A DNA stretch of 64,000 nt. Source: Periplaneta americana. Its lineage: Eukaryota > Arthropoda > Insecta > Blattodea > Blattidae. The translations under genes were made by a program, and so were the position numbers. Location of the stretch: contig NC_091120.1 in assembly GCF_040183065.1 (NCBI RefSeq), positions 317,501 to 381,500 on the forward strand. Reading direction: 5' to 3'. Under the pieces are notes generated by a model. It was not told where the DNA came from. It did not search any database and saw only the letters and a program-made list of their open reading frames with translations. This document shows positions 4,316-62,120 of this stretch, one piece after another. The stretch's first letter is position 1, and every line of letters begins with the position of its first letter.

Positions 4316-4357
<42 letters not shown>

Positions 4358-42031: not shown

Positions 42032-45000
42032 CTGCAACACGCAAAGCACACCATTACTGTAGCAAGCCTGTGATTTTGACTGGAGGCATCGGTCTGGGGG
42101 ATGCAGTCGGTATAGTGTGCCCGAGGTTTCTGGTTCGATCCCAGCCCAGGTCGATGGCATTTCAGTGTTTAAATGCGACAGGCTTATATCAGTAGATTTA
42201 CTGGCATGTGAAAGAACTCCTGCGGAACAAAATTCAGACACACCGGCGACGCTGATATACCTTCGGCAGTTGCAAGCGACGTTAAATAAAACAATTGAAT
42301 CTTTTAAACTGGAGGCTCGACTTCACTTCCCGAGGAAGCCTAGCTGTAACTTGATCTATCGTAAATGGCGTAAGATACATCCTTCTGTGATGGGAGAAAT
42401 GACAGCACCACTTCGAGAAGCAGAAGTATCGCTTTTCCGTCAACTCTGAAATATGTTCCGTTTTTATTCTTGATTCTGCCCTGTCTCGCGGGTAGTGCGA
42501 AAGGGAGTGCCTACAGCATTCTGAGTCTAACCAGCGGCTTTCTACTTCGAGTTGAGCTCTTGCATTCCTTATACGCGGGTTGCCCAAAAATTAGTCTCTC
42601 ATATTTTTTCTTAGCCAAAGCAATGTGTTAGTAACACGATATTGTGGTACTAATTATTTGAAGTTTCTTGAAGTCTCATACAAATATTTATTTCAATACT
42701 CATAATGAAAGCCTAGCCTATAAAGTCTCTTTGCGATCCTGGAAAATTTACTTCAATGGACTTGGAATATTAGCCATTTCAGGTCTTCCATTAGAGATTA
42801 TTTTTCTGCAGGAAACATTTCACCGAACATATGAAGGCTGGGTCGGCAAGATTCAGAAAAAGCACGTCTGAATTACGCGATAAGTCAGGAATTTAAATTT
42901 GTTTCTAGAAGTGTGATGATGTTCAACGAAAAGATAGCTAGATCAACTGATGCTCCGGCATGAGCGATGCCTCTTGCTAGGGGTGGGTAAACTGTCGGAC
43001 CTGTCCCTGCAGTAGTACATGATTGTGTAACAATTACATAATAATAATTGAGCTAATTATAGGCCTCATTATGAAAAAACTGCTTAAGTTAAAGAGAAGC
43101 TATGTTTATTATTTGTTATATCCTACTATTTTTTAATTAACTGCATTTATTACAGAGGTACATTCTGCAAAATATGCATTTATTTCTCGTTTTCTTGTAT
43201 GAGCGTAACACATTATGTATTACTGAAGAGCAGTTTAATTCATCTTCCAGTGGTAGGCCAATAGAGTTCGTTTTGCTCACTCCTTTTTTTTTACCGCTTC
43301 TACCTGCAGAATAGATTCATTGGGACTCGTGAGCGCTTGGTAGCACGTAGTCTTTTACGTGCTCTGAACTTGACATCCCTGGAGTAGATACTAGTATGTC
43401 CGACATTGTGGCAAACAATACCAAATCTGTTGAATCAAAAACAACTCTGTCCAATACATCATATGAAATTTCTACAATGACAATTGATTTGAATACTTAG
43501 GTTTACTACATTCTGAACAGATTCATTCATTCATAGTGTTCTGCCCAAGGCAGGTCTTTCACTACAAACCCAGTATTCTCCAGTCTTTCCTATTTTCTGC
43601 CTTCCTCTTTGTCTCCTCATATGACCCACATATCTTAATTTCGTCTGTCATCTGATACCTTCTTCTGCAAATTAATATTCATAATTAAGTAATCAGTACA
43701 CAATTTTAACATTGGGAAGATTATAAAATGCATTTTTTGTTCATACCCTAAAATTCGATTTGAAGGACAAAGTCTCTTTTGAATATTTGCTCCTCATACA
43801 GGGACATCATTTTATTTTTACTTCAATTTTTATTGTACCTGCGTTTTTGAATGTACTTCACTCCCACCCCTTCTACCAATGAAGTTCAACCGTCCTCCAC
43901 ACAGATCCAAGACCGCATATACAGTCATAGTAGCCTTACGGTCATAGTAAACAGTACGTTCCAAAAATACGTTCGCGTTTTCCAGTGACTAAGGACTTTC
44001 AATATTGAATCATTTTCGCACAGGTACTGTCGTCCATTTGCCTACGTCGTATCCCGGTTTCCCCCACCTTCTTTTATTCGCCAGCTAGTGGCTGGGCTGT
44101 CTTAGCTCTCTTCTGAGAACATTAATTTCTGCTAGGAATTGGACGTCTGCGTAATGTTATACAACTGTTTAGAATAACTTAAATAAAAGGGCCTCGTTAA
44201 GTAATTAACTGTCACGTGATTTCCTCCCTTTCTATGACCCTACGACATAACCACTTGGACGGACAGTAGATAGCATGTCTGAGTAATTTTATCTTTTCGG
44301 ATCGGGCAGAAGTGAAGATTGAATTTACAGTACGTAAAGTACTCTTTTATAGAGTAGGCACATAATTATTTCAACATGAGTTACTCGTACGAAGGACGAA
44401 ACTGGTAATTGGGATTAAGTACAATAGTGTATAGTGCGATAATATGCACATTAGAACTAAAGCCTGTATCGAAACGAACGGCCACCATTTAAAAAAATGT
44501 GTTTGAATATCCATATTATGATTATTTTTAAATTTAACTTCTTTCTCTATATTGTACGCTAATGTGCTGTAGACAGTATAATATACACTGCATAATGAAT
44601 ACGTCCGCATGGACAGCTCAGTTCGTGAGTAAAAACACTCATTGTTAATACTGTACTGTATTTTGATTAAACAAAAACCTAATGAAAATGATCAAACTCA
44701 AAATCGCGATATTTTCTAGTTTACGTAAATGGATGAACTACTTTTCTTCCCTCCTATACCTAGTAAAGTGATTTGTTTGTATATTACGCCAGTATCATCG
44801 AACTCCAGTTGTGGAAGGAGGTAGCAAACGGCGTTGATCCAGAGGTATAGGCAGGTTAATATTAAAAATGTTAGTAAAAATAAAATGATGTCCCTGTATA
44901 TCTTTTTATACAATTTCCTCATTTTGAAAGATAAATGGCGACTACTCTTGAATAGCTCCACCCTCCTCAACTTACAGCCGTGCACGACGAGCGCCACGAT

Positions 45001-47171
45001 GAAGCCGACTCCGACTGCCGTGTCTCCGCTGTTGAAGCTGCTGATGGAGAACAGGAGGTGCTGCACGCAGGAGAGCACGAGGTACAGGCAGCCGTACATG
45101 AGCCACGGCAGCAGGTAGCGCAGCTGGCCCTGCGGACAAAGCGACAGCTAGACATTTGCGGCACAGACTGCGGCGAGCAGCAGGGCGTGGCAGTACTTAC
45201 ACTGCAGCGAGCAGCAGCACGTGGCCGTACTTACACTGCAGCGAGCAGCAGCACGTGGCCGTACTTACACTGCAGCGAACAGCGGGACGTGGCCGTACTT
45301 ACACTGCAGCGAGCAGCAGCACGTGGCCGTACTTACACTGCGCGCCCCGAAGAAGAGCAGCACGCTGACGGCCAGCAGCACCGCCCCCGTCACGCCGCCC
45401 GCCAGCACCACTGCAACAGACAGGTTGCTGAGCAACGGCCAGACTGACTGGCACCAGACGACGACAACACGAGGCGCCCGCCACTTACCTTCGTACATGC
45501 CGTGCAAGTCCTTGGCGAACTCGGGACCCGCCACGGCGAGCACCAGGCTCAGCAGGCCGATAGTCTGCAACACATTACATTGCAGTTAGCCTGTTTGCAT
45601 GGGCTATTCCATATGAAATCGATCAGTAAAAACCCTTGCATTTTTTATACCCTAATTTTTTCCCCATTTATACAAGGTGCTGAGGAGAGTGCATTTGCAA
45701 AAATATACTATCGAAAGTCAAACGGTTTTCGTATTGTTGAGCGACAAATTTAGCGTATTTTAGAAAAACAAGCCTCTTTCAGCGCTCAGAACTCTGGAAC
45801 CATTTACTGCAGAACATTGAACGAGAGCTCATTTTGAAGCTGACATTTGGTAGGTTATGATAAGAAGTAATCCTTATTTTTATTGTATACAGAGAGACAG
45901 ATAATCTGATTTTACTTAGTTTCAGGCTTTCTGGCCATTTGTAAAAATGTAAAAAAATATTGACAAAAACCTTGCATTATTAAGAGGGATTCGGCATTGT
46001 TTGCTTAGTGTCACGGCAATAAGTTTCGAGGGTATTAAATAAATTATATTCACACGCCTAGACTTGAAAGGCTCAACACAGCAAGCACTGGCCGAGAGAT
46101 GAAGATAAGCGAGCGCTGGGCGTCATTTTACTCCTGTGTTTATGAAACGCTGTGATAAAGCTAGCCCAGCTATGCGCTACTAGACGAAACATCGCGTGTT
46201 TATGTCTCCTGACCTTGCTTGCCTAGGCTAGCTCCCGCCTCACAGTCAGCTGGTTAGCTCACGCGCGTACTATTTATTTTCTTTATTTGATTTTTCAATA
46301 CTTTCTTATTAACGTTGCACCAGTAAAAAATACGTGTTTATTTGTACTTTCAATGCGGAATCTAACCATATATTTTAGAAATATTTTTTCGTGGGGAAAC
46401 GTGTCTAATTAAGAAAAATCTAAATTTCTCCATTTCCATAAAAAGTAAGAAAAACTGTTTACATGTCAATATAAACTTTAACTTTTCAGCATCAAAATAA
46501 ACCATGATTTTGATCACTGGGTGAAAGGGTTTCGGAGCCACAACAGTTTAAAGTTGCTAATTTTATGAAAACACGATAAATTTAAATATTTTTAATTTAA
46601 ACACTATGAAGTTATGATGCCTCAAACTTTGCACAAAGCATTGTATCATAGTTGTCTACGTACAAAAAAAAGTTTCATTGTATTTAAAAATCGCAAGGTC
46701 AATTTTCTCTGTATTTCGGTCGATTTGAGATGGAATAGCCCGCATGCACATCTCTGAGGTATGAACACTAAGCCGTGCTGGAAACACACGAGCACACCTG
46801 GCGGCGCGTTTGAACTCTTTGATACGTCGTGATGATTGGCCTTGTGGGATTTGTTTCTAATACAGACTCTGCAGTAAAGGGATGCTGTAATCAAATGTGG
46901 TTCCAACAGGACGTGAAAAACGATTTAAAATGGATTGTCGGACTGTATGCTAGATGCAGAATATAAAAACAAATTTTATTCACAAATTATCATTTACCAA
47001 TGTGTGATAATGGACTAAAAATACAGAGGAATGGAGAAGAGGTCGACGGATGTACGCACCGCATCTGTAACGCTGATGATGCTGCTGCCCGTCTTCAGCG
47101 AGCATCCGCAGCAGCACTGTCGCAGCATCAGCACCATCTCCACGGATTGACGCAGATTCTGCTGCTCGTAC
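41955..47171 (-). CDS. Gene 2: paralogous four-pass membrane protein, five coding exons, 152 aa
   Basis: Joining 47137-47060, 45564-45489, 45410-45337, 45129-44976 and 42031-41955 on the minus strand gives 459 nt, 152 residues plus TGA, all junctions in frame. The N-terminus is [19 protein letters not shown], followed by four hydrophobic segments (about residues 14-40, 53-75, 80-107, 116-141) and a tail [12 protein letters not shown]. It shares with gene 1 the exon count, intron phases 0,1,0,1, identical lengths of exons 1 and 4 and near-identical lengths of the others. The loop after helix one ([13 protein letters not shown]) differs from gene 1. Exons are much more GC-rich than the surrounding introns. 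Introns 1 and 4 each contain an inverted-repeat DNA element of about 1.1 kb. Function is unknown; same insect DUF-type tetraspan family as gene 1, by inference. Confidence 0.85.
42085..42294 (+). mobile_element. SINE, family B, in gene 2 intron 4
   Basis: CCCGAGGTTTCTGGTTCGAT leads into AGGTCGATGGCATTTCAGTG and ends GCAAGCGACGTTAAATAAAA. It begins about 55 bases upstream, in transcript direction, of gene 2 exon 5, on the antisense strand. Confidence 0.78.
43525..43672 (-). mobile_element. LINE 3' end, family L-a
   Basis: Read on the minus strand: GGTATCAGATGACAGACGAA, ATTAAGATATGTGGGTCATA, GTGAAAGACCTGCCTTGGGC and a GAATGAATGAAT terminus. Third copy of the family, in gene 2 intron 4 and sense to that gene. 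Confidence 0.7.
43799..44896. mobile_element. 1.1-kb inverted-repeat DNA element in gene 2 intron 4
   Basis: The ends are CAGGGACATCATTTTATTTT and its inverted copy, flanked by TA on both sides (43797-43798, 44897-44898), the target pattern of Tc1/mariner-like elements. No transposase frame was seen, so it is probably non-autonomous. A second, inverted and diverged copy begins at 63261. One end is 79 bases from exon 4 of gene 2. Confidence 0.8.
44976..45129 (-). CDS. Gene 2 coding exon 4
   Basis: Acceptor GTCCGCAG precedes 45129 and donor GTAAGT occupies 44975-44970. The 154 nt encode [18 protein letters not shown], the third helix, then [13 protein letters not shown] and the start of helix four ([11 protein letters not shown]). 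The length equals gene 1 exon 4. The next intron carries a 1.1-kb DNA element whose end is 79 bases from this exon. Confidence 0.87.
45187..45342. repeat. 34-bp minisatellite spanning gene 2 exon 3 donor
   Basis: Units start at 45187, 45221, 45255, 45289 and 45323 (last one partial, merging into exon 3). The consensus starts GTGGCCGTACTTACACTGCA and ends GCGAGCAGCAGCAC. Each unit carries ACTTACACTG, which on the transcribed minus strand is CAGTGTAAGT, the exon 3 donor. The third unit differs (GAACAGCGGGAC). Confidence 0.95.
45337..45410 (-). CDS. Gene 2 coding exon 3
   Basis: Acceptor TTGCAG precedes 45410; donor AGT|GTAAGT is at 45336-45331. The 74 nt plus the carried base encode [18 protein letters not shown] then LFFGARS, the second helix. 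The donor sits in the last, partial copy of a 34-bp tandem repeat, so the intron immediately downstream contains four more copies of the same donor sequence. Confidence 0.85.
45489..45564 (-). CDS. Gene 2 coding exon 2
   Basis: Acceptor GTTGCAG precedes 45564 and donor GTAAGT occupies 45488-45483. The 76 nt encode [16 protein letters not shown] then AKDLHGMYE plus one base (phase 1). It lies only 36 bases from the inverted-repeat element that fills much of intron 1. Confidence 0.85.
45601..46741. mobile_element. 1.14-kb inverted-repeat DNA element in gene 2 intron 1
   Basis: The left end is GGGCTATTCCATATGAAATC and the right end is the inverted form GATTTGAGATGGAATAGCCC. A GCAT appears on both flanks (45597-45600, 46742-46745), a possible 4-bp target duplication. 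No coding frame for a transposase was recognised. The element begins 36 bases upstream, in transcript direction, of gene 2 exon 2. Confidence 0.7.
47060..47171 (-). CDS. Gene 2 coding exon 1 (ATG at 47137-47135)
   Basis: Acceptor GTGTTGCAG ends at 47172. 34 bases precede the ATG; they are open in frame ([11 protein letters not shown]), so an earlier start in an upstream exon cannot be excluded, but the paralog aligns from this ATG. The 78 coding nt match gene 1 exon 1 in length. The donor at 47059-47054 is GTGCGT, weaker than the GTAAGT/GTGAGT used elsewhere. Confidence 0.82.
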
Positions 47172-49854
47172 CTGCAACACGCCCGTTAATTTTTCTGTAT
47201 TTTCGTCGTAACTCTTTATTTTTAATAATAGCATTAATGTGTATAATTAGTGACATATACTTACATCATGGCATTAACTATAATAATATTTCATTTTTAA
47301 TGGTAATAATGTCATCAAACCTAAAAATTTGTTGTACCGGTATATTACACTACATAAAATCTTTTATAAAAAATGTTATCAAACATAACCTAAAATTAGG
47401 AACAAAAGCTCTCCTAACACTTGTTCCGAGGATTTGTTGATACTAATATTTAAGCGTTAAGAATAAAATAAAATTAATAAGCGATTACGTGAGTTTTTGT
47501 AGTCCTAATCATTAACATTGTAATCTCTCTCTCTTTCTCTCCGGATGTTGTCACTAGAACGTGCTATTCGCATTTTGTCGAAGTACTTCTACTTCCAGAT
47601 GTTTCCCAGGTGATAAAATTTAAATTGTTGCTTCGTGGTTTTACCTTATTTTTTTCTCAACGCATTGTCGTGACTTTAGCAAGAGTAGGCCTATTGTTTA
47701 ACTTAATTGTATATTTCTGTTTTCAATTGAAGTTTTAAGCGCCCACGTTACGTGGGAACGAAAGCTTGGTGTCACCAGTGGATTAGGGTTTGCGTAGCAC
47801 GAAATAAAGCCCAGCGACAGTGCGTGCTTTTTTGACTGAACAAGTTCACTTGCAGCTGAGTTTCCTATTCGTTGAATGACGGATATTTCTGTAGTTGTAT
47901 TATGTACAATATTTAAGAAATGACGCAAGTTTGGGACCGACGACTTGTGTTTGTTGAACATTTTTTTTATTTTAATATTTTATTTAACAACGCTGTAGCA
48001 ACATCTTAGGTTATTTAGCGTCTGACTGAGATGAAGGTGATAATGCCGGTGATATGAGTCCGGGGTCCAACACCGAAAGTTACCCAGCATTTGCTGATAT
48101 TGGGTTCAGGGAAAACCCCGGAAAAAACCTCAACCGGGTAACTTGCCCCGACCGGGAATCGAACCCGGGCCACCTGGTTTCGCGGCCAGACTCGCTAACC
48201 GTTACTCCACAGGTGTGGACTGTTTGTTGAACAGTCCCGTGGTGTTATTTTGCTCAATTGTTATTATGGTAGGGGTGCGGGGTGACGCAATAAGCCTACT
48301 GTACAGACATTACACTTGGTTCCGCACGTGGGTTTCCGATTTGAAAGCCGTTCACCTAAAAGACTTATTCATCTAGAATTCTAGAGCCCCTTGTTGGGCT
48401 TTTTATGGGTATCACATCTTCTACTGCTGGACATGTATACCATTGATTGTGTTTGTGCATTCACAATGAAAGTGAAGCTCTAATCATTAATGTTGTCTTA
48501 CGTTATTCGAAACGTATCGAGTTCATAAAAACAATATAAGTCTGCGGTAAAACGAAGTGAAACTTTAATTTCTGTGATCAGCTTATGCCTCTAGATGATA
48601 TGCTATTTAGCGCGTCCTGATAACATGACGGACAGCGTTGCTGGTGGTCCACTTGACAACTCCGGAAACAGTCTGTCAGAGTGGTAATGGAGCGAACGTG
48701 GTGCTGTGCTGTGTATCCTGTCTGATGATATTTTAAGATTTCCCTCGTTCAATCGTGGCAAATGTTCCACGCACATAATTCGAACACGCGGCACCTGTCT
48801 TTTTTATTTGGGTCAAGTCTGATGTGTCATATCTTTCTACACGTTTCTAGTCCTTGAATTCCATTCATTATACCACGAAGTAGGATAAAGAGAAATATTC
48901 TAATTCTGCAATTACGATACAAGGATGGGAAGCCCTTTTTACAAAATCGAGAAGTTTTCAGTTTCCGAGATTTTGTAATGCACTTCACAAATGTGTATTG
49001 TACAACATTTTTTGTACGATCATATTTTTAAAATTGCAAATACAGTATATTTTGCATTGAAAATTTAGAGGAATATTAATCCAAAGCCTTCGCAAAACTA
49101 TACTGTAATGGTAACTAAGTAACAATAAGTGCACTGTAATGGGTCTATTTCAGTATAGTGTTATGTTATGAAGAATGGTTTCCCTAGCAACAAGTTTCTG
49201 TGTGTGAATTATAACTTTCAAGGTCTAACAATAAGAGTTGTAAAAAAAAAAAAACAAAAAAAAAAAACACGATCGTGCAAAAAAGATAGTTACAGATCTT
49301 CAGAGCGTGTATGCGTACTTATTATCTACAGCGCACCTAATGAATATGAAATGTAATGATTTTTATAAGGAATTAAGGCGTCTTTATTTAGAAGGAGCAA
49401 TAGGTTTACTCCATGAAGAATTATTACCACCCTGAAAGGAGAGGAGTAGTAAACTGTTAAGCTAACTACAACCTATGCCTAGTTTTGTTGCTCATGCGCA
49501 GACAATGCGGATTTTATTCATATCAGTTCTTTGTGCTGATTTGTTGTATCTCGTTGTGAAAGTTTTCGCCGTCAGCGACGCAAAAGACTCATCGCAAATG
49601 TTAACGCGAGTGCGTGAGTTTCATATTTTCCTCTTTAACGGTGTGATTTGTTACCTTTAACAAGAAAGGAGAACACTTGGCATCTCATTATGAATCACTA
49701 ATATCCCTTTTAAAATCATAAATATGAAGAGAAAAACTATTGTAACATGCGGGCAGCAGTGGCACAAACACAGATGTAGTACAAACAGTAAAGACGGCTT
49801 TTCCATCTTCTCACAGACAGTTCCGAGTTGCGATTTCCTCTCTCCTTTGAAAGC
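47172..49854. other. Upstream region of gene 2, no exon identified
   Basis: The unseen first exon and promoter of gene 2 should lie here or further right. Apart from the SINE at 48 kb and a poly(A)-rich stretch near 49,240-49,267, nothing recognisable was found. Confidence 0.45.
47961..48220 (-). mobile_element. tRNA-derived SINE, family A
   Basis: Reverse-orientation copy of the 1.9-kb SINE. A perfect 13-bp target duplication TGTTTGTTGAACA lies at 47948-47960 and 48221-48233, proof of retroposition. Confidence 0.92.
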
Positions 49855-52800
49855 GGGTCTTCAGTTTCATTTACGACAACAGGTTGTAATCGCATCGGGT
49901 CTTCAGTTTTATTTCCGACAATAGGTCGTAATCGCATCGGGTCTTCAGTTTTATTTACGACAACAGGTTGTAATCGCATCTGGTCTTCAGTTTTATTTAC
50001 GACAACAGGTTGTAATCGCATCGGGTCTTCAGTTTTATTTACGACAACAGGTTGTAATCGCATCGGGTCTTCAGTTTTATTTACGAGAACAGGTTGTAAT
50101 CGCATCTGGTCTTCAGTTTTATTTACGAGAACAGGTTGTAATCGCATCGGGTCTTCAGTTTTATTTACGACGACAGGTTGTAATCGCATCGGGTCTTCAG
50201 TTTTATTTACGAGAACAGGTTGTAATCGCATCTGGTCTTCAGTTTTATTTACGACGACAGGTTGTAATCGCATCGGGTCTTCAGTTTTATTTACGAGAAC
50301 AGGTTGCAATCGCATCGGGTCTTCAGTTTTATTTACGAGAACAGGTTGTAATCGCATCGGGTCTTCAGTTTTATTTACGAGAACAGGTTGTAATCGCATC
50401 TGGTCTTCAGTTTTATTTACGAGAACAGGTTGTAATCGCATCTGGTCTTCAGTTTTATTTACGAGAACAGGTTGTAATCGCATTTGGTCTTCAGTTTTAT
50501 TTACGAGAACAGGTTGTAATCGCATCTGGTCTTCAGTTTTATTTACGAGAACAGGTTGTAATCGCATCTGGTCTTCAGTTTTATTTACGAGAACAGATTG
50601 TAATCGCATCTGGTCTTCAGTTTTATTTACGAGAACAGGTTGTAATCGCATCGGGTCTTCAGTTTTATTTACGACGACAGGTTGTAATCGCATCTGGTCT
50701 TCAGTTTTATTTACGAGAACAGGTTGTAATCGCATCTGGTCTTCAGTTTTATTTACGACGACAGGTTGTAATCGCATCGGGTCTTCAGTTTTATTTACGA
50801 GAACAGGTTGTAATCGCATCGGGTCTTCAGTTTTATTTACGACGACAGGTTGTAATCGCATCTGGTCTTCAGTTTTATTTACGAGAACAGGTTGTAATGG
50901 CATCGGATCTTCAGTTTTATTTACGACGACAAGTTGTAATCGCATCGGGTCTTCAGTTTTATTTACGAGAACAGGTTGTAATCGCATCTGGTCTTCAGTT
51001 TTATTTACGAGAACAGGTTGTAATCGCATCGGGTCTTCAGTTTTATTTACGAGAACAGGTTGTAATCGCATCGGGTCTTCAGTTTTATTTACGACGACAG
51101 GTTGTAATCGCATCTGGTCTTCAGTTTTATTTACGAGAACAGGTTGTAATGGCATCGGATCTTCAGTTTTATTTACGACGACAAGTTGTAATCGCATCGG
51201 GTCTTCAGTTTTATTTACGAGAACAGGTTGTAATCGCATCTGGTCTTCAGTTTTATTTACGAGAACAGGTTGTAATCGCATCTGGTCTTCAGTTTTATTT
51301 ACGAGAACAGGTTATAATCGCATCGGGTCTTCAGTTTTATTTACGAGAACAGATTGTAATCGCATCTGGTCTTCAGTTTTATTTACGAGAACAGGTTGTA
51401 ATCGCATCGGGTCTTCAGTTTTATTTACGAGAACAGGTTGTAATCGCATCTGGTCTTCAGTTTTATTTACGAGAACAGGTTGTAATCGCATCGGGTCTTC
51501 AGTTTTATTTACGACGACAGGTTGTAATCGCATCTGGTCTTCAGTTTTATTTACGAGAACAGGTTGTAATCGCATCTGGTCTTCAGTTTTATTTACGAGA
51601 ACAGGTTGTAATCGCATCGGGTCTTCAGTTTTATTTACGAGAACAGGTTGTAATCGCATCGGGTCTTCAGTTTTATTTACGAGAACAGGTTGTAATCGCA
51701 TCTGGTCTTCAGTTTTATTTACGACGACAGGTTGTAATCGCATCGGGTCTTCAGTTTTATTTACGAGAACAGGTTGTAATCGCATCGGGTCTTCAGTTTT
51801 ATTTACGAGAACAGGTTGTAATCGCATCGGGTCTTCAGTTTTATTTACGAGAACAGGTTGTAATCGCATCTGGTCTTCAGTTTTATTTACGAGAACAGGT
51901 TGTAATCGCATCTGGTCTTCAGTTTTATTTACGAGAACAGGTTGTAATCGCATCTGGTCTTCAGTTTCATTTACGAGAACAGGTTGTAATCGCATCTGGT
52001 CTTCAGTTTTATTTACGAGAACAGGTTGTAATCGCATCTGGTCTTCAGTTTTATTTACGAGAACAGATTGTAATCGCATCTGGTCTTCAGTTTTATTTAC
52101 GAGAACAGGTTGTAATCGCACCGGGTCTTCAGTTTTATTTACGACGACAGGTTGTAATCGCATCTGGTCTTCAGTTTTATTTACGAGAACAGGTTGTAAT
52201 CGCATCTGGTCTTCAGTTTTATTTACGACGACAGGTTGTAATCGCATCTGGTCTTCAGTTTTATTTACGACGACAGGTTGTAATCGCATCGGGTCTTCAG
52301 TTTTATTTACGAGAACAGGTTGTAATCGCATCGGGTCTTCAGTTTTATTTACGACGACAGGTTGTAATCGCATCTGGTCTTCAGTTTTATTTACGAGAAC
52401 AGGTTGTAATGACATCGGATCTTCAGTTTTATTTACGACTACAAGTTGTAATCGCATCGGGTCTTCAGTTTTATTTACGAGAACAGGTTGTAATCGCATC
52501 TGGTCTTCAGTTTTATTTACGAGAACAGGTTGTAATCGCATCGGGTCTTCAGTTTTATTTACGAGAACAGGTTGTAATCGCATCGGGTCTTCAGTTTTAT
52601 TTACGACGACAGGTTGTAATCGCATCTGGTCTTCAGTTTTATTTACGAGAACAGGTTGTAATCGCATCTGGTCTTCAGTTTTATTTACGAGAACAGGTTG
52701 TAATCGCATCGGGTCTTCAGTTTTATTTACGAGAACAGATTGTAATCGCATCTGGTCTTCAGTTTTATTTACGAGAACAGGTTGTAATCGCATCGGGTCT

Positions 52801-54765
52801 TCAGTTTTATTTACGAGAACAGGTTGTAATCGCATCTGGTCTTCAGTTTTATTTACGAGAACAGGTTGTAATCGCATCGGGTCTTCAGTTTTATTTACGA
52901 CGACAGGTTGTAATCGCATCTGGTCTTCAGTTTTATTTACGAGAACAGGTTGTAATCGCATCTGGTCTTCAGTTTTATTTACGACGACAGGTTGTAATCG
53001 CATCGGGTCTTCAGTTTTATTTACGAGAACAGGTTGTAATCGCATCGGGTCTTCAGTTTTATTTACAACGATAGGTTGTAATCGCATCGGGTCTTCAGTT
53101 TTATTTATTAGAACATGTTGTAATCGCATCGGGTCTTCAGGTTTATTTACGACGGCAGGTTGTAATCGCATCTGGTCTTCAGTTTTATTTACGAGAACAG
53201 GTTGTAATCGCATCTGGTCTTCAGTTTTATTTACGACGACAGGTTGTAATCGCATCGGGTCTTCAGTTTTATTTACGAGAACAGGTTGTAATCGCATCTG
53301 GTCTTCAGTTTTATTTACGAGAACAGGTTGTAATCGCATCGGGTCTTCAGTTTTATTTACGAGAACAGGTTGTAATCGCATCGGGTCTTCAGTTTTATTT
53401 ACGAGAACAGGTTGTAATCGCATCTGGTCTTCAGTTTTATTTACGAGAACAGGTTGTAATCGCATCGGGTCTCAGTTTTATTTACGAGAACAGGTTGTAA
53501 TCGCATCGGGTCTTCAGTTTTATTTACGACGATAGGTTGTAATCGCATCGGGTCTTCAGTTTTATTTATTAGAACATGTTGTAATCGCATCGGGTCTTCA
53601 GTTTTATTTACGACGGCAGGTTGTAATCGCATCGGGTCTTCAGTTTTATTTACGAGAACAGGTTGTAATCGCATCGGGTCTTCAGTTTTATTTACGACGA
53701 CAGGTTGTAATCGCATCTGGTCTTCAGTTTTATTTACGAGAACAGGTTGTAATGACATCGGATCTTCAGTTTTATTTACGACGACAAGTTGTAATCGCAT
53801 CGGGTCTTCAGTTTTATTTACGAGAACAGGTTGTAATCGCATCTGGTCTTCAGTTTTATTTACGAGAACAGGTTGTAATCGCATCTGGTCTTCAGTTTTA
53901 TTTACGAGAACAGGTTGTAATCGCATCGGGTCTTCAGTTTTATTTACGAGAACAGGTTGTAATCGCATCGGGTCTTCAGTTTTATTTACGAGAACAGGTT
54001 GTAATCGCATCTGGTCTTCAGTTTTATTTACGAGAACAGGTTGTAATCGCATCGGGTCTTCAGTTTTATTTACGACGACAGGTTGTAATCGCATCTGGTC
54101 TTCAGTTTTATTTACGAGAACAGGTTGTAATCGCATCTGGTCTTCAGTTTTATTTACGACGACAGGTTGTAATCGCATCGGGTCTTCAGTTTTATTTACG
54201 AGAACAGGTTGTAATCGCATCGGGTCTTCAGTTTTATTTACGACGATAGGTTGTAATCGCATCGGGTCTTCAGTTTTATTTATTAGAACATGTTGTAATC
54301 GCATCGGGTCTTCAGTTTTATTTACGACGGCAGGTTGTAATCGCATCTGGTCTTCAGTTTTATTTACGAGAACAGGTTGTAATCGCATCTGGTCTTCAGT
54401 TTTATTTACGACGACAGGTTGTAATCGCATCGGGTCTTCAGTTTTATTTACGAGAACAGGTTGTAATCGCATCTGGTCTTCAGTTTTATTTACGAGAACA
54501 GGTTGTAATCGCATCGGGTCTTCAGTTTTATTTACGAGAACAGGTTGTAATCGCATCGGGTCTTCAGTTTTATTTACGAGAACAGGTTGTAATCGCATCT
54601 GGTCTTCAGTTTTATTTACGAGAACAGGTTGTAATCGCATCGGGTCTTCAGTTTTATTTACGAGAACAGGTTGTAATCGCATCTGGTCTTCAGTTTTATT
54701 TACGAGAACAGGTTGTAATCGCATCGGGTCTTCAGTTTTATTTACGACAACAGGTTGTAATCGCA
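49855..54765. repeat. 42-bp minisatellite, 117 units
   Basis: A head-to-tail array with consensus beginning GGGTCTTCAGTTTTATTTAC, then GAGAACAGGT and TGTAATCGCATC. The span of 4,911 bases equals 117 x 42 minus 3: one base is missing at about 53,471 and the last unit lacks two. Nearly all variation sits at two sites (TCG/TCT before GG, and GAGAACA versus GACGACA/GACAACA). Rare variants (GGCATCGGAT or GACATCGGAT; TTAGAACATG) mark internal block duplications. Since 42 is divisible by three and most frames lack stops, the array is open for over 1,200 codons on plus and for hundreds on minus (unit MRLQPVLVNKTEDQ). No promoter, splice site or non-repeat coding sequence joins it, so I annotate it as a satellite. 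Confidence 0.97.
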
Positions 54766-57443
54766 GGGACTAATATTTTTGTGAATTCCGTGAATATTCG
54801 AGGAGTTTGTGTGAACCGTAGTGAACAAATGCTTTGAGCTGGGACTAATTTCGGAATGTCGCTTCATACGAAGAGAAAATATATTGCATGCCCTTCATGA
54901 ATAAAATTACTTCTCTTATCACAGACTCATACTCTCCAGGTGTAAACCGGAAAATTAATAAAACATTCAAAACAACACAACTGTATTTTAATTCCCGAAG
55001 CTATGTGCCAGAGAATACCGGATTTTTTCCAGGTCACCGAAGTTGACGTAAATCTCAGCTTGGCAATAAACTTATCCCGCTGTAGGCCTACTTGTATAAT
55101 TTTTTTTACCAGTTTGACGATTTTTTTTTGCCTAATGGTAAATCAGTCTTATTCCACTTCTGACTCCACCTGTTATCAGAAACAGTGAACCAGTCGAAAC
55201 AAATTACTGATGATCTTGATAAAATAATAGTAAATCACACACTTCGTGTGCAATTGTTGCATGAACAGTGCACACTGAGCCCTGTCAGCTGCTAGTCCTA
55301 TTTAATGTCACGTGACAGTAGCGACGCCATAATATGAGTTAAAAGTAATAATAGTGCCTGTGCGTTTGGAGATAAGAATGTGCAGTAATGGAAACAGCTT
55401 TAAAACGTAGTTCTAGTTTTTCTCCATATGGGCCCATGCATTTTTTTTTTTCAGAATTGCCAAGTGCTAAAATTTCTTTTGTCTCTTCAAACACGTAAGC
55501 GTCGCTAGGTTGGCAACACAGCGTCTCAAACTGTGAGATAACGTTAACACATTGCTTACTGTGGAGTCCGGGTTTATATGCACTAAAGTTCATAACACTG
55601 TGATGTCATTTACTATTTCGTAACAACCCAGTGGAGTGCATCAGTAGGGTTGCCGCTAAAATGTCTGTGTAACGCGAAGAGAAGAATGGTACGAGGAAAT
55701 AAATTTAAAAAAGTTGCCAGGGAAGTGCAATGATACCGGTTTGGCAAAATTTGTTCTCTGTCCAACAGTTCTTTCAATTAGATGTGAAGGAAAGCGTATG
55801 CAGCGAAGGAACACAAGCTTGCAGTGGCGGCAAGTAACAAAAATAAAACAATCGTTCATTTCTTTAATGTGAAAGATTCCTATGCAGAAAACAGTACTGC
55901 AGCTGCTGAACTATCATTTTCTTATGCACCATCGTAGCTATTTGTCTGGATAAACAGGCGAGTTCGGTATTTAAAGTTTCTAACTTACATAGCGGCCACA
56001 CCAAATGTGAAATGTTATTTATCAAATACTTGTTTTCAAACATTCCTTTTTTCAGAGGGGCCTTCAGTATAACTTGGCTAACCTAAAGAATGAGTTACAA
56101 CTCCTGACTGTTCTATTTATTTCTTACGTAACTATATGAACTTTGTAACAAAAACAGTTTCACAGCTAGAAAATCGTTCAACACAATCAACAGATGTGTT
56201 GTTGTTTAGTCATCTGTCCGAAGACAGGTTTGAAGTGACACCAATAAGGCATCACTCATAAGGCAACTAGATATTGAGGTAGGGTAGCCAGTTCCTTTCC
56301 TCCCTCCATTGCATACATCGCTCACTAGTAACTTATTCCACTAGTCAGACTTCAGATGTATACCCTGACACATATGTCAAGTGAGATGTACTGCCTGATA
56401 TTACATGTAGGCGTACATATCAGCCAGAACCTGAATCAGAGCTAAACAAATGTGTTTGAAATATTAAGTAAATTATGAGTATTTGAAATTAAGAATTTTT
56501 GATGGGTTTTTTGGATTCAAAGTACACAAAAATTTTTGGATGTTGTGTCCATGAGATAAGGTGTCTTTAAAAAATGATGTGCTAACGGCTTATTAAAGAA
56601 ATTTAGTTTATTTGGAAAAAAGGTTCGATTTTTATTCCTCTTCTTTCCAGTAACATTTGAACGCCCACAAATATCGTGAAAGTAAATATACTGACAATAT
56701 TGATGGCGAAAATATCGTGCAAGATAGTGTCCCAAGAACGAATAAAGAAGGCTGCACCAACAGATCAGTAAATCCAGCAGCAGCGTCCCCAACTTACTTA
56801 AAATAGTCAAACGTTGTTCTGTCTGCAGTCGAACACGTGTCTTCAATAATGAAAGGCCTGTAGACAGATGACAATGTTAAAACAGTTGAGAGTAAACTTC
56901 CTGTATTCAAAAGTTATCATCATTACTAGCTATCAAATATACCTCCAAAAGGCCGTAGAATCAGCATCAACAGCGTCAGAAAAATTAAAAGTAATTTGAT
57001 GTTAAGTATTCTTAATATACCCCATAGTCAGCCATAGATATTCAGACATTTTGGCTTCGGGAGGTAGAAACCCTTACGTGCATGCGCTACGTAGTTGGAA
57101 TTGCAGCGAGAATTATATTTTATCAAGTTCTCATGTCAGTTGTTTGGAGATACACACCATGTTAGTCAGGATCTAATCTGTAACAGTGTTCCTCGCGATC
57201 CCAGCTGATATTTCAATTTTGTCAACATTTTATTCGAAACCCAGGGGCAACATCAAATCAGTGATAGGCTGTTTAACTGATTTCAGAGTTTCTTTCACAC
57301 TTGCAATGTCATTTTGCGGAGTGATGAGTGATCAGTGCCTCCTAATTGCAGTTGAAATTCAAATAATGATGCAACAATTGAGCAGAAGCGCAGCACTTCC
57401 CCTTATCCACACTCCACAGTACCGGCGTCACGTGCTGTAGATA
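54766..57443. other. No recognisable gene
   Basis: Besides family X at 56.2 kb, only short chance frames. Confidence 0.45.
56205..56420 (-). repeat. Dispersed repeat, family X
   Basis: Minus-strand order CATCTGAAGTCTGACTAGTG, GATGTATGCAATGGAGGGAG, GCCTTATGAGTGATGCCTTA and GACTAAACAACAAC matches the 6.8-kb copy. Confidence 0.65.
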
Positions 57444-58192: not shown

Positions 58193-58750
58193 TTATGTTA
58201 CGCGCTCTGCAACAATATTACGAGACAAACATATAGATTTAAAATCATTAACGTATTCCAGACATATCCCTTTTGCAACAGCTATGAGGCAGCCTTTTAC
58301 AAATTCTCCGTCAGTAAATAGCTTTGAAGCCGTTGCAGTAATTTCACAAATTTTGTAGCTAGCATCAATCAAGATTATTCTACTAACACCCGATGATGAT
58401 GGAAGGTTTTCTGAATTCAATCTTGATTTTAATTCTTCTACAGCCTTTTCACGAGTGAAACCGAATAACTTTTCTGGTCCATAAGCTTCAGTATGACGTG
58501 TAGAATTAAAATGCCTTTTAATATTATGATGGCTAATGTATCCAAGTTCCTTTCTACATATTAAGCAATGTGCCTTTCCGTCCTTTAAGATAAATAAATA
58601 TTTATCTGTCCACTCACTATTGAATCGTCGTTCCATATCCATACCAGCCGCCAGAGTTGATAAACACACTGCGTACAAAACAGTGCTACAGGAGCTGACT
58701 GACTGTCGTTTCAGTTCAGCTACGGTAGCAAACGGTATTAATCGTTTCAC
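58193..58750 (-). pseudogene. hAT transposase N-terminal fragment with zinc finger
   Basis: The frame reads RRFNSEWTDKYLFILKDGK then CLICRKELGYISHHNIKRHF, a CxxC...H...H finger like those at the start of ZBED/GTF2IRD2-type hAT proteins, where it binds transposon ends. Downstream, between about 57,900 and 58,190, a shifted minus frame resembles the usual continuation (ALDESTD-like, then a region near VDSDFNV and TRGGDIFE). The frame break and missing C-terminus make it a pseudogene. Only family resemblance is claimed. Confidence 0.72.
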
Positions 58751-61515: not shown

Positions 61516-62120
61516 TTCAAACCACGCACCGCGGCACACGTCACATTACACTGACTGTCACTCACTCACCTGGAAGTCAAACTGCCGGTGTGCGGGTCCA
61601 CACAGCAGGTCTTGTTATTTATAACGCCAAGGGTGGACTCCAGAGCCCATCCAATTCCTGACTAATTTTATCCGGGGGACCCTCCCCTTCCTATCGTCCT
61701 AATTTTAACAACGTGTGAAATTTCAGGTCACCTCGCTGGTGGGGGGCGGCAGGCTCAACCCTTCGGTGCCCGCGTCACGTTAAAGGGTCCAGTGCCCTCA
61801 GACCTCGACCCAGGACATGGAGTAACACTGCTTAGCTGGCAAAGTATTGTGATGACTGATGACACAAGAAATCGATTCCGACACTTTCGCTTAAATGCAC
61901 AGTCTCATCAAAAAGGAGTTTGGACACGCCGTCTATGAACAGCGGTCAATTTATACAAGCCAATATAGGAAATGATGCGCATGAAAAAGTGTGGGTTAGT
62001 CGGTTAATAAAAATGAGAAAATGTATTCTAATATGAAATGACAAAAGACAGGTAGGCTGCAATAACAAAACTTGTAATAGTAAGGACGACACCACAGTAT
62101 CAGATTCACTTGAGTTGCGA
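61516..62120. other. GC-rich repeat-like block and SINE B scrap
   Basis: 61,566-61,850 is unusually GC-rich (CCGGGGGACCCTCCCCTTCC, GGTGGGGGGCGGCAGGCTCA) with no good frame. It looks like a transposon untranslated region but is unassigned. The end of the interval holds the family B 3' end interrupted by SINE C. Confidence 0.4.

Follow-up and report, generated by a model that had tools for sequence, protein, structure and literature searches.

How does a 42-bp sequence come to be repeated more than a hundred times in succession with almost no change in unit length, and does such an array stand alone in its genome or belong to a dispersed family? We addressed this question for an array of Periplaneta americana that lies in a window of 64,000 nt, the whole stretch of DNA analysed here (scaffold C4:317501-381500). 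The assembly is in all likelihood PAMFEO1_priV1, which its report describes as 3.23 Gb in 91 scaffolds, 17 of them chromosome-size, with AACCT as the telomere repeat (PMC12774602); the genome searched comprises 3,231,669,367 bases in 91 contigs, C4 measuring 208.7 Mb. Our data indicate that the array is very probably a non-coding, single-locus minisatellite, situated ~367 kb from the scaffold end and shaped by block duplication through unequal exchange or conversion-like repair. C4 begins with the insect telomere repeat, in a tract that reaches ~17.5 kb, and this end of the scaffold looks like a chromosome end, which places the array ~367 kb from an apparent chromosome end. A run of N of ~5 kb within the telomere tract (~2.5-7.5 kb, L017:2501-7500) may be a scaffold gap.

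TRF describes the array with a period of 42, 117.0 copies, 94% matches, 0% indels and a score of 8676, at which chance is not an issue. Division at an internal anchor also gave 117 units, 42 nt long in 115/117 and 41 nt in 2/117 (Table 1). The preliminary description, made from the sequence before this analysis, had recognized 117 units of 42 bp, one deleted base near 53,471 and a shortened last unit, and all three are confirmed, the deletion falling in unit 87 and the truncation in unit 117. Its length, 117 x 42 minus 3, is right when counted from 49855; the TRF start at 49854 gives 117 x 42 minus 2, or 4912 bp, the difference being a choice of phase. GC content is 0.395-0.396 in 50001-54000 (~40% for the array), within a range of 0.333-0.442 over the window.

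Table 1. Features of the array and its surroundings (window positions unless marked C4)
Feature	Position	Strand	Basis
Minisatellite array, 117 head-to-tail 42-bp units	49854..54765 = C4:367354-372265	+ (as given, no coding strand implied)	TRF, anchor splitting
Units 1-5, left edge, all CA at columns 24-25	49854..50063	+	column haplotypes
Putative higher-order block copy A, units 9-43 (35 units)	50190..51659, edges approximate	+	unit-type alignment; limits interpretive
Putative higher-order block copy B, units 44-87 (44 units)	51660..53506, edges approximate	+	unit-type alignment; limits interpretive
Unit 87, 41 nt, sole internal 1-nt deletion	53466..53506	+	anchor split
Putative higher-order block copy C, units 88-116 (29 units)	53507..54724, edges approximate	+	unit-type alignment; limits interpretive
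Unit 117, truncated last unit, 41 nt, CA haplotype	54725..54765	+	anchor split, column haplotypes
Membrane-protein-like gene, three exons	45564-45489, 45410-45337, 45129-44976 (44976..45564)	-	splice signals
Dispersed repeat with A-rich tail, left of single-copy flank	48911..49269	+	genome search
Left flank, no other genomic match	49304..49853	+	600-base query search
Dispersed repeat of ~200 bp, starting 41 bp past the array	54806..55012	+	genome search

The units fall into 26 exact types, the four commonest of which make up 84 of the 117 (33 + 31 + 11 + 9). When units are reduced to columns 2, 24 and 25, with the two 41-nt units padded, four types cover 110/117, in agreement with the four main types reported earlier. 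Among the 115 full-length units, column 2 is G in 62 and T in 53, column 24 is G in 80 and C in 35, and column 25 is A in 85, G in 29 and T in 1. Columns 24 and 25 are linked, occurring as GA, as CG, as a rare CA and, in a single unit, as CT; GG is absent from the array units. Because of this linkage the array has two effective variable sites, and the earlier statement that substitutions concentrate at two positions holds in that sense, although three columns vary. Any two units differ on average by 2.06 in 42 positions, which makes them 95.1% identical, and the whole array contains 23 distinct substitution types and one internal indel.

The order of the unit types is more informative than their frequencies. 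Class agreement between units 71-87 and units 99-115 is complete (17/17 positions), a level reached in 0/300 shuffles, and the two segments differ by 2 substitutions in 714 bp and one 1-nt deletion. Between units 9-22 and units 44-57 there are 4 substitutions in 588 bp, and two further pairs of segments, units 23-28 with 29-34 and units 36-41 with 69-74, are each exactly identical over 252 bp. A gapped alignment of unit types, units 9-87 against 44-115, scores 47, and the best shuffle reached 18 in 150 permutations and 28 in 150 neighbour-preserving ones. Autocorrelation of exact unit types is weak (best lag 28, z 2.9). Because the alignment score is far above those of the shuffles, we read the array as a higher-order block present in about three diverged copies. 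Units of type r, with changes in columns 38 and 39, as well as units of type u, are common to blocks B and C and lacking in A, and these shared marked units suggest that B and C probably split last. The preliminary description read the array as a near-binary string; the image understates the pattern, since the order departs from a random mix and resolves into about three block copies.

The history that we propose would start from a 42-bp sequence repeated in tandem, through which changes at column 2 and columns 24-25 would have spread. The approximately three diverged higher-order copies would then have arisen as blocks of 6 to ~35 units (0.25-1.5 kb) were duplicated again and again, whether through unequal exchange or through conversion-like repair acting between sister or homologous arrays, the edge units keeping an older haplotype. 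The CA haplotype, restricted to units 1-5 and 117, differs from each of the common haplotypes, GA and CG, by a single step; it looks ancestral, and may have survived only at the two edges as amplification replaced the interior. Single-unit slippage alone would hardly preserve 17 ordered unit classes across 28 units. Exchange as the mechanism, the direction in which the columns changed and a continuing variation in copy number are inferences from these patterns. Uniform unit length had previously been taken to point to recent expansion or strong homogenisation. Homogenisation by amplification is supported by the 95.1% identity, the near-identical blocks and the confinement of CA to the edges, but length uniformity alone is weak evidence for it, since the one internal indel stands beside just 23 distinct substitution types. 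The locus is a clean worked example of an array whose history is carried not by the length of its units but by the sequence in which their variants follow one another.

Among the other explanations, we give little credence to a regulatory role, in which the array would act as an enhancer of variable length or as a chromatin element for a membrane-protein-like gene on the minus strand. The nearest gene found, it has a weak DUF4728 match (E 1.2e-4, 23.1 bits vs a cut-off of 26.7), and a genome search found its sequence at this place only. The array lies ~4.3 kb from its most 5' exon found, and either upstream of the gene or inside it: a candidate first exon at 61592, from a first filter, was unconvincing, and a second filter gave no candidate for the 5' exon, which weakens the regulatory reading. 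Substitution types are sparse in unit columns 3-19 (3/23) and dense in columns 20-34 (15/23), and a scan for a deficit of changes gave P of 0.028-0.061 for 15-17 columns and 0.24-0.33 for 20 columns. This deficit is borderline; it weighs somewhat against wholly neutral evolution and leaves some room for constraint, as does the predicted minus-strand fold of a unit dimer, which beats 196/200 shuffles (reached by 4/200); the plus strand shows none, 120/200 shuffles folding as well. A dyad in columns 21-39 forms 6 pairs and is equalled by 33-39% of shuffles, and the dyad-like half of the unit therefore speaks against a regulatory role. There is a slim chance that the array works as a switch of variable length, acting on the membrane-protein gene or on subtelomeric chromatin, in which a mildly constrained core (approximately columns 3-19) would bind a putative factor and block-wise changes in copy number would alter its strength. 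Most likely, the array has no function, and we saw no sign of one. Within the same gene, an array of ~5 copies of a 34-bp unit (45167-45341) lies at an exon-intron junction. Its copies on the minus strand carry the donor hexamer GTAAGT at 45336, 45302, 45268, 45234 and 45200, and also an acceptor-like GC[T/C]GCAG, so that splicing of the gene could vary.

Less probable again is an origin of the array within a transposable element, as one of its internal tandem repeats, or from a satellite family dispersed in the genome. Such an origin is suggested by the dispersed repeats on either side of the array and by a neighbouring 49-bp minisatellite of the dispersed kind, but the 42-bp unit itself occurs at the array only. 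A two-unit query against the genome gave one first-look candidate, the array locus. A genome-wide scan, in which a 35-nt unit core was allowed up to 3 mismatches, returned 113 forward matches, 0 reverse matches and 0 with a backward control; the same scan on the window's array alone also returned 113, placing 113/113 genomic matches inside it. As a positive control, the 49-bp unit (C4:431843-437333) gave 334 first-look candidates, of which 40 were scored, on many scaffolds, and a comparable dispersal of the 42-bp unit would therefore have been detected. The searches thus support a single genomic locus for the 42-bp unit: of the two outcomes that the preliminary description had set out, a unique locus and an array repeated at hundreds of loci, they favour the first, and we rejected the class of dispersed satellites or transposon-internal repeats.

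The flanks agree with this reading. In a 600-base query from the left flank, all 14 other genomic matches fall in the first 50 bases, and the ~550 bp that adjoin the array, which separate its left edge from these repeat-like matches, had no second match in the genome search. The dispersed repeat beyond this flank gave 2574 first-look candidates, and its main matches among the 40 scored are 85-93% identical. The repeat to the right gave 2020 first-look candidates, other copies among the 40 scored being 79-84% identical; the seven of these that we fetched, out of 39 scored other copies, do not contain the array sequence. A trace of the founding sequence was sought in the 100-bp flanks and rejected, the best local scores being 10 and 10 and the shuffle means 12.6 and 13.2.

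In 20 ten-kb pieces of C4:10001-520000, scored for arrays of at least 150 bp with a period of at least 5, the only other array above 1 kb besides the telomere tract was the 49-bp one; elsewhere in the genome we found one array, of 0.65 kb, among 14 loci (43,594 bases), a small and biased set fetched for repeat matches. The 49-bp minisatellite has 112 copies (C4:431843-437333, L043:1843-7333) and lies ~60 kb from the 42-bp array. Its listed matches are all on the plus strand, which may reflect which candidates were scored. In the subset of its units that passed an exact anchor (62/~112), the best block match was 4 vs a shuffle maximum of 7, and there was no block excess in that subset.

An assembly artefact in the copy number or in the order of the blocks is as improbable as a transposon origin. 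Near-identical blocks of 0.6 kb can be mis-assembled, but an array of 4.9 kb with frequent variant units fits the usual length of HiFi reads. The assembly was built from PacBio HiFi reads, according to its report (PMC12774602), and the 64,000-nt window contains no N. Least probable of all is a repetitive protein-coding exon with 14 codons per 42-bp unit: long ORFs cover the array on both strands, up to 1235 aa, but they follow from the unit length, 42 being divisible by 3, so that a stop-free unit frame (3/6 are open) continues through the array, and in the real array no frame has fewer than 2 stops, the 1-nt deletion disrupts the cleanest, and synonymous changes in the three open frames number 7, 4 and 7 of the 23 types against 7.2, 6.9 and 6.4 expected. 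With no intact frame and no synonymous excess, we found no coding signal in the array in substitution pattern, stops or frameshift, and rejected a coding tandem repeat. An affiliation of the satellite with any described family of RNA, ribozymes included, was also rejected, the window yielding no Rfam match at the gathering score and no tRNA match.

The non-coding minisatellite that we favour is ordinary in kind: it belongs to a known type and opens no new mechanism. Its unit of 42 bp and length of 4912 bp lie within the limits given in one account of minisatellites, units of ~10 to >100 bp in arrays of 100 bp to >20 kb (PMC1929145); another sets the line at <25 bp but terms such limits arbitrary (PMC9498494). 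The array also has the interspersed variant units of the class (26 exact types) and a locus-specific unit (113/113 matches inside it), and lacks the GC-rich unit that is usual, not required. What is new here is the higher-order arrangement of its units, together with the evidence for a single locus and its position close to the end of a scaffold. Our search of the literature on cockroach minisatellites and P. americana satellite DNA returned no paper on this locus, and three pieces of the unit sequence did not occur in the literature searched.

The closest parallels are with mapped minisatellites of mouse and human. Like the mouse hypervariable minisatellites mapped by variant repeats, the array combines units of tens of bp with a kb-scale length and a few interspersed variants whose order is readable as a map, and some mouse alleles described in that work show block duplications (PMC1929145). 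Those minisatellites are usually GC-rich, unlike the ~40% GC of the cockroach array, and variability among individuals was measured there whereas one assembly is considered here (PMC1929145). Human D1S80 is likewise subtelomeric, with relatively constant edge units (four on one side and seven on the opposite side) and a changing centre, but its printed alleles have ~18-31 units, against 117 in the cockroach array, and 6/7 of the new mutations reported for it were single-unit steps (PMC3356730), against the blocks of 6 to ~35 units to which the unit order points here. By this comparison, block events would not be the rule at every minisatellite. The ordered recurrence of monomer types inside a longer block is shared with the alpha satellite higher-order repeats outlined in PMC9498494; the cockroach locus differs in having only some three diverged blocks, all in a single array of 4.9 kb close to the end of a scaffold, and in its single-locus unit. 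If alleles differ, the array would provide a marker that is confined to one locus and easy to score in a cosmopolitan pest.

Apart from these repeats, the window contains eight trinucleotide microsatellites, at 4317, 9258, 11525, 14296, 30223, 37534, 39238 and 57702; seven are of the AAT type and one is CAT, and five are perfect over 45-66 bp. Two sets of ORFs, of 5 and 10, were scanned against Pfam and gave one match at the cut-off, a PF18658 zinc finger in a minus-strand ORF at 58196-58750 (27.3 bits, cut-off 27.3), which is perhaps transposon-derived or part of a gene fragment.
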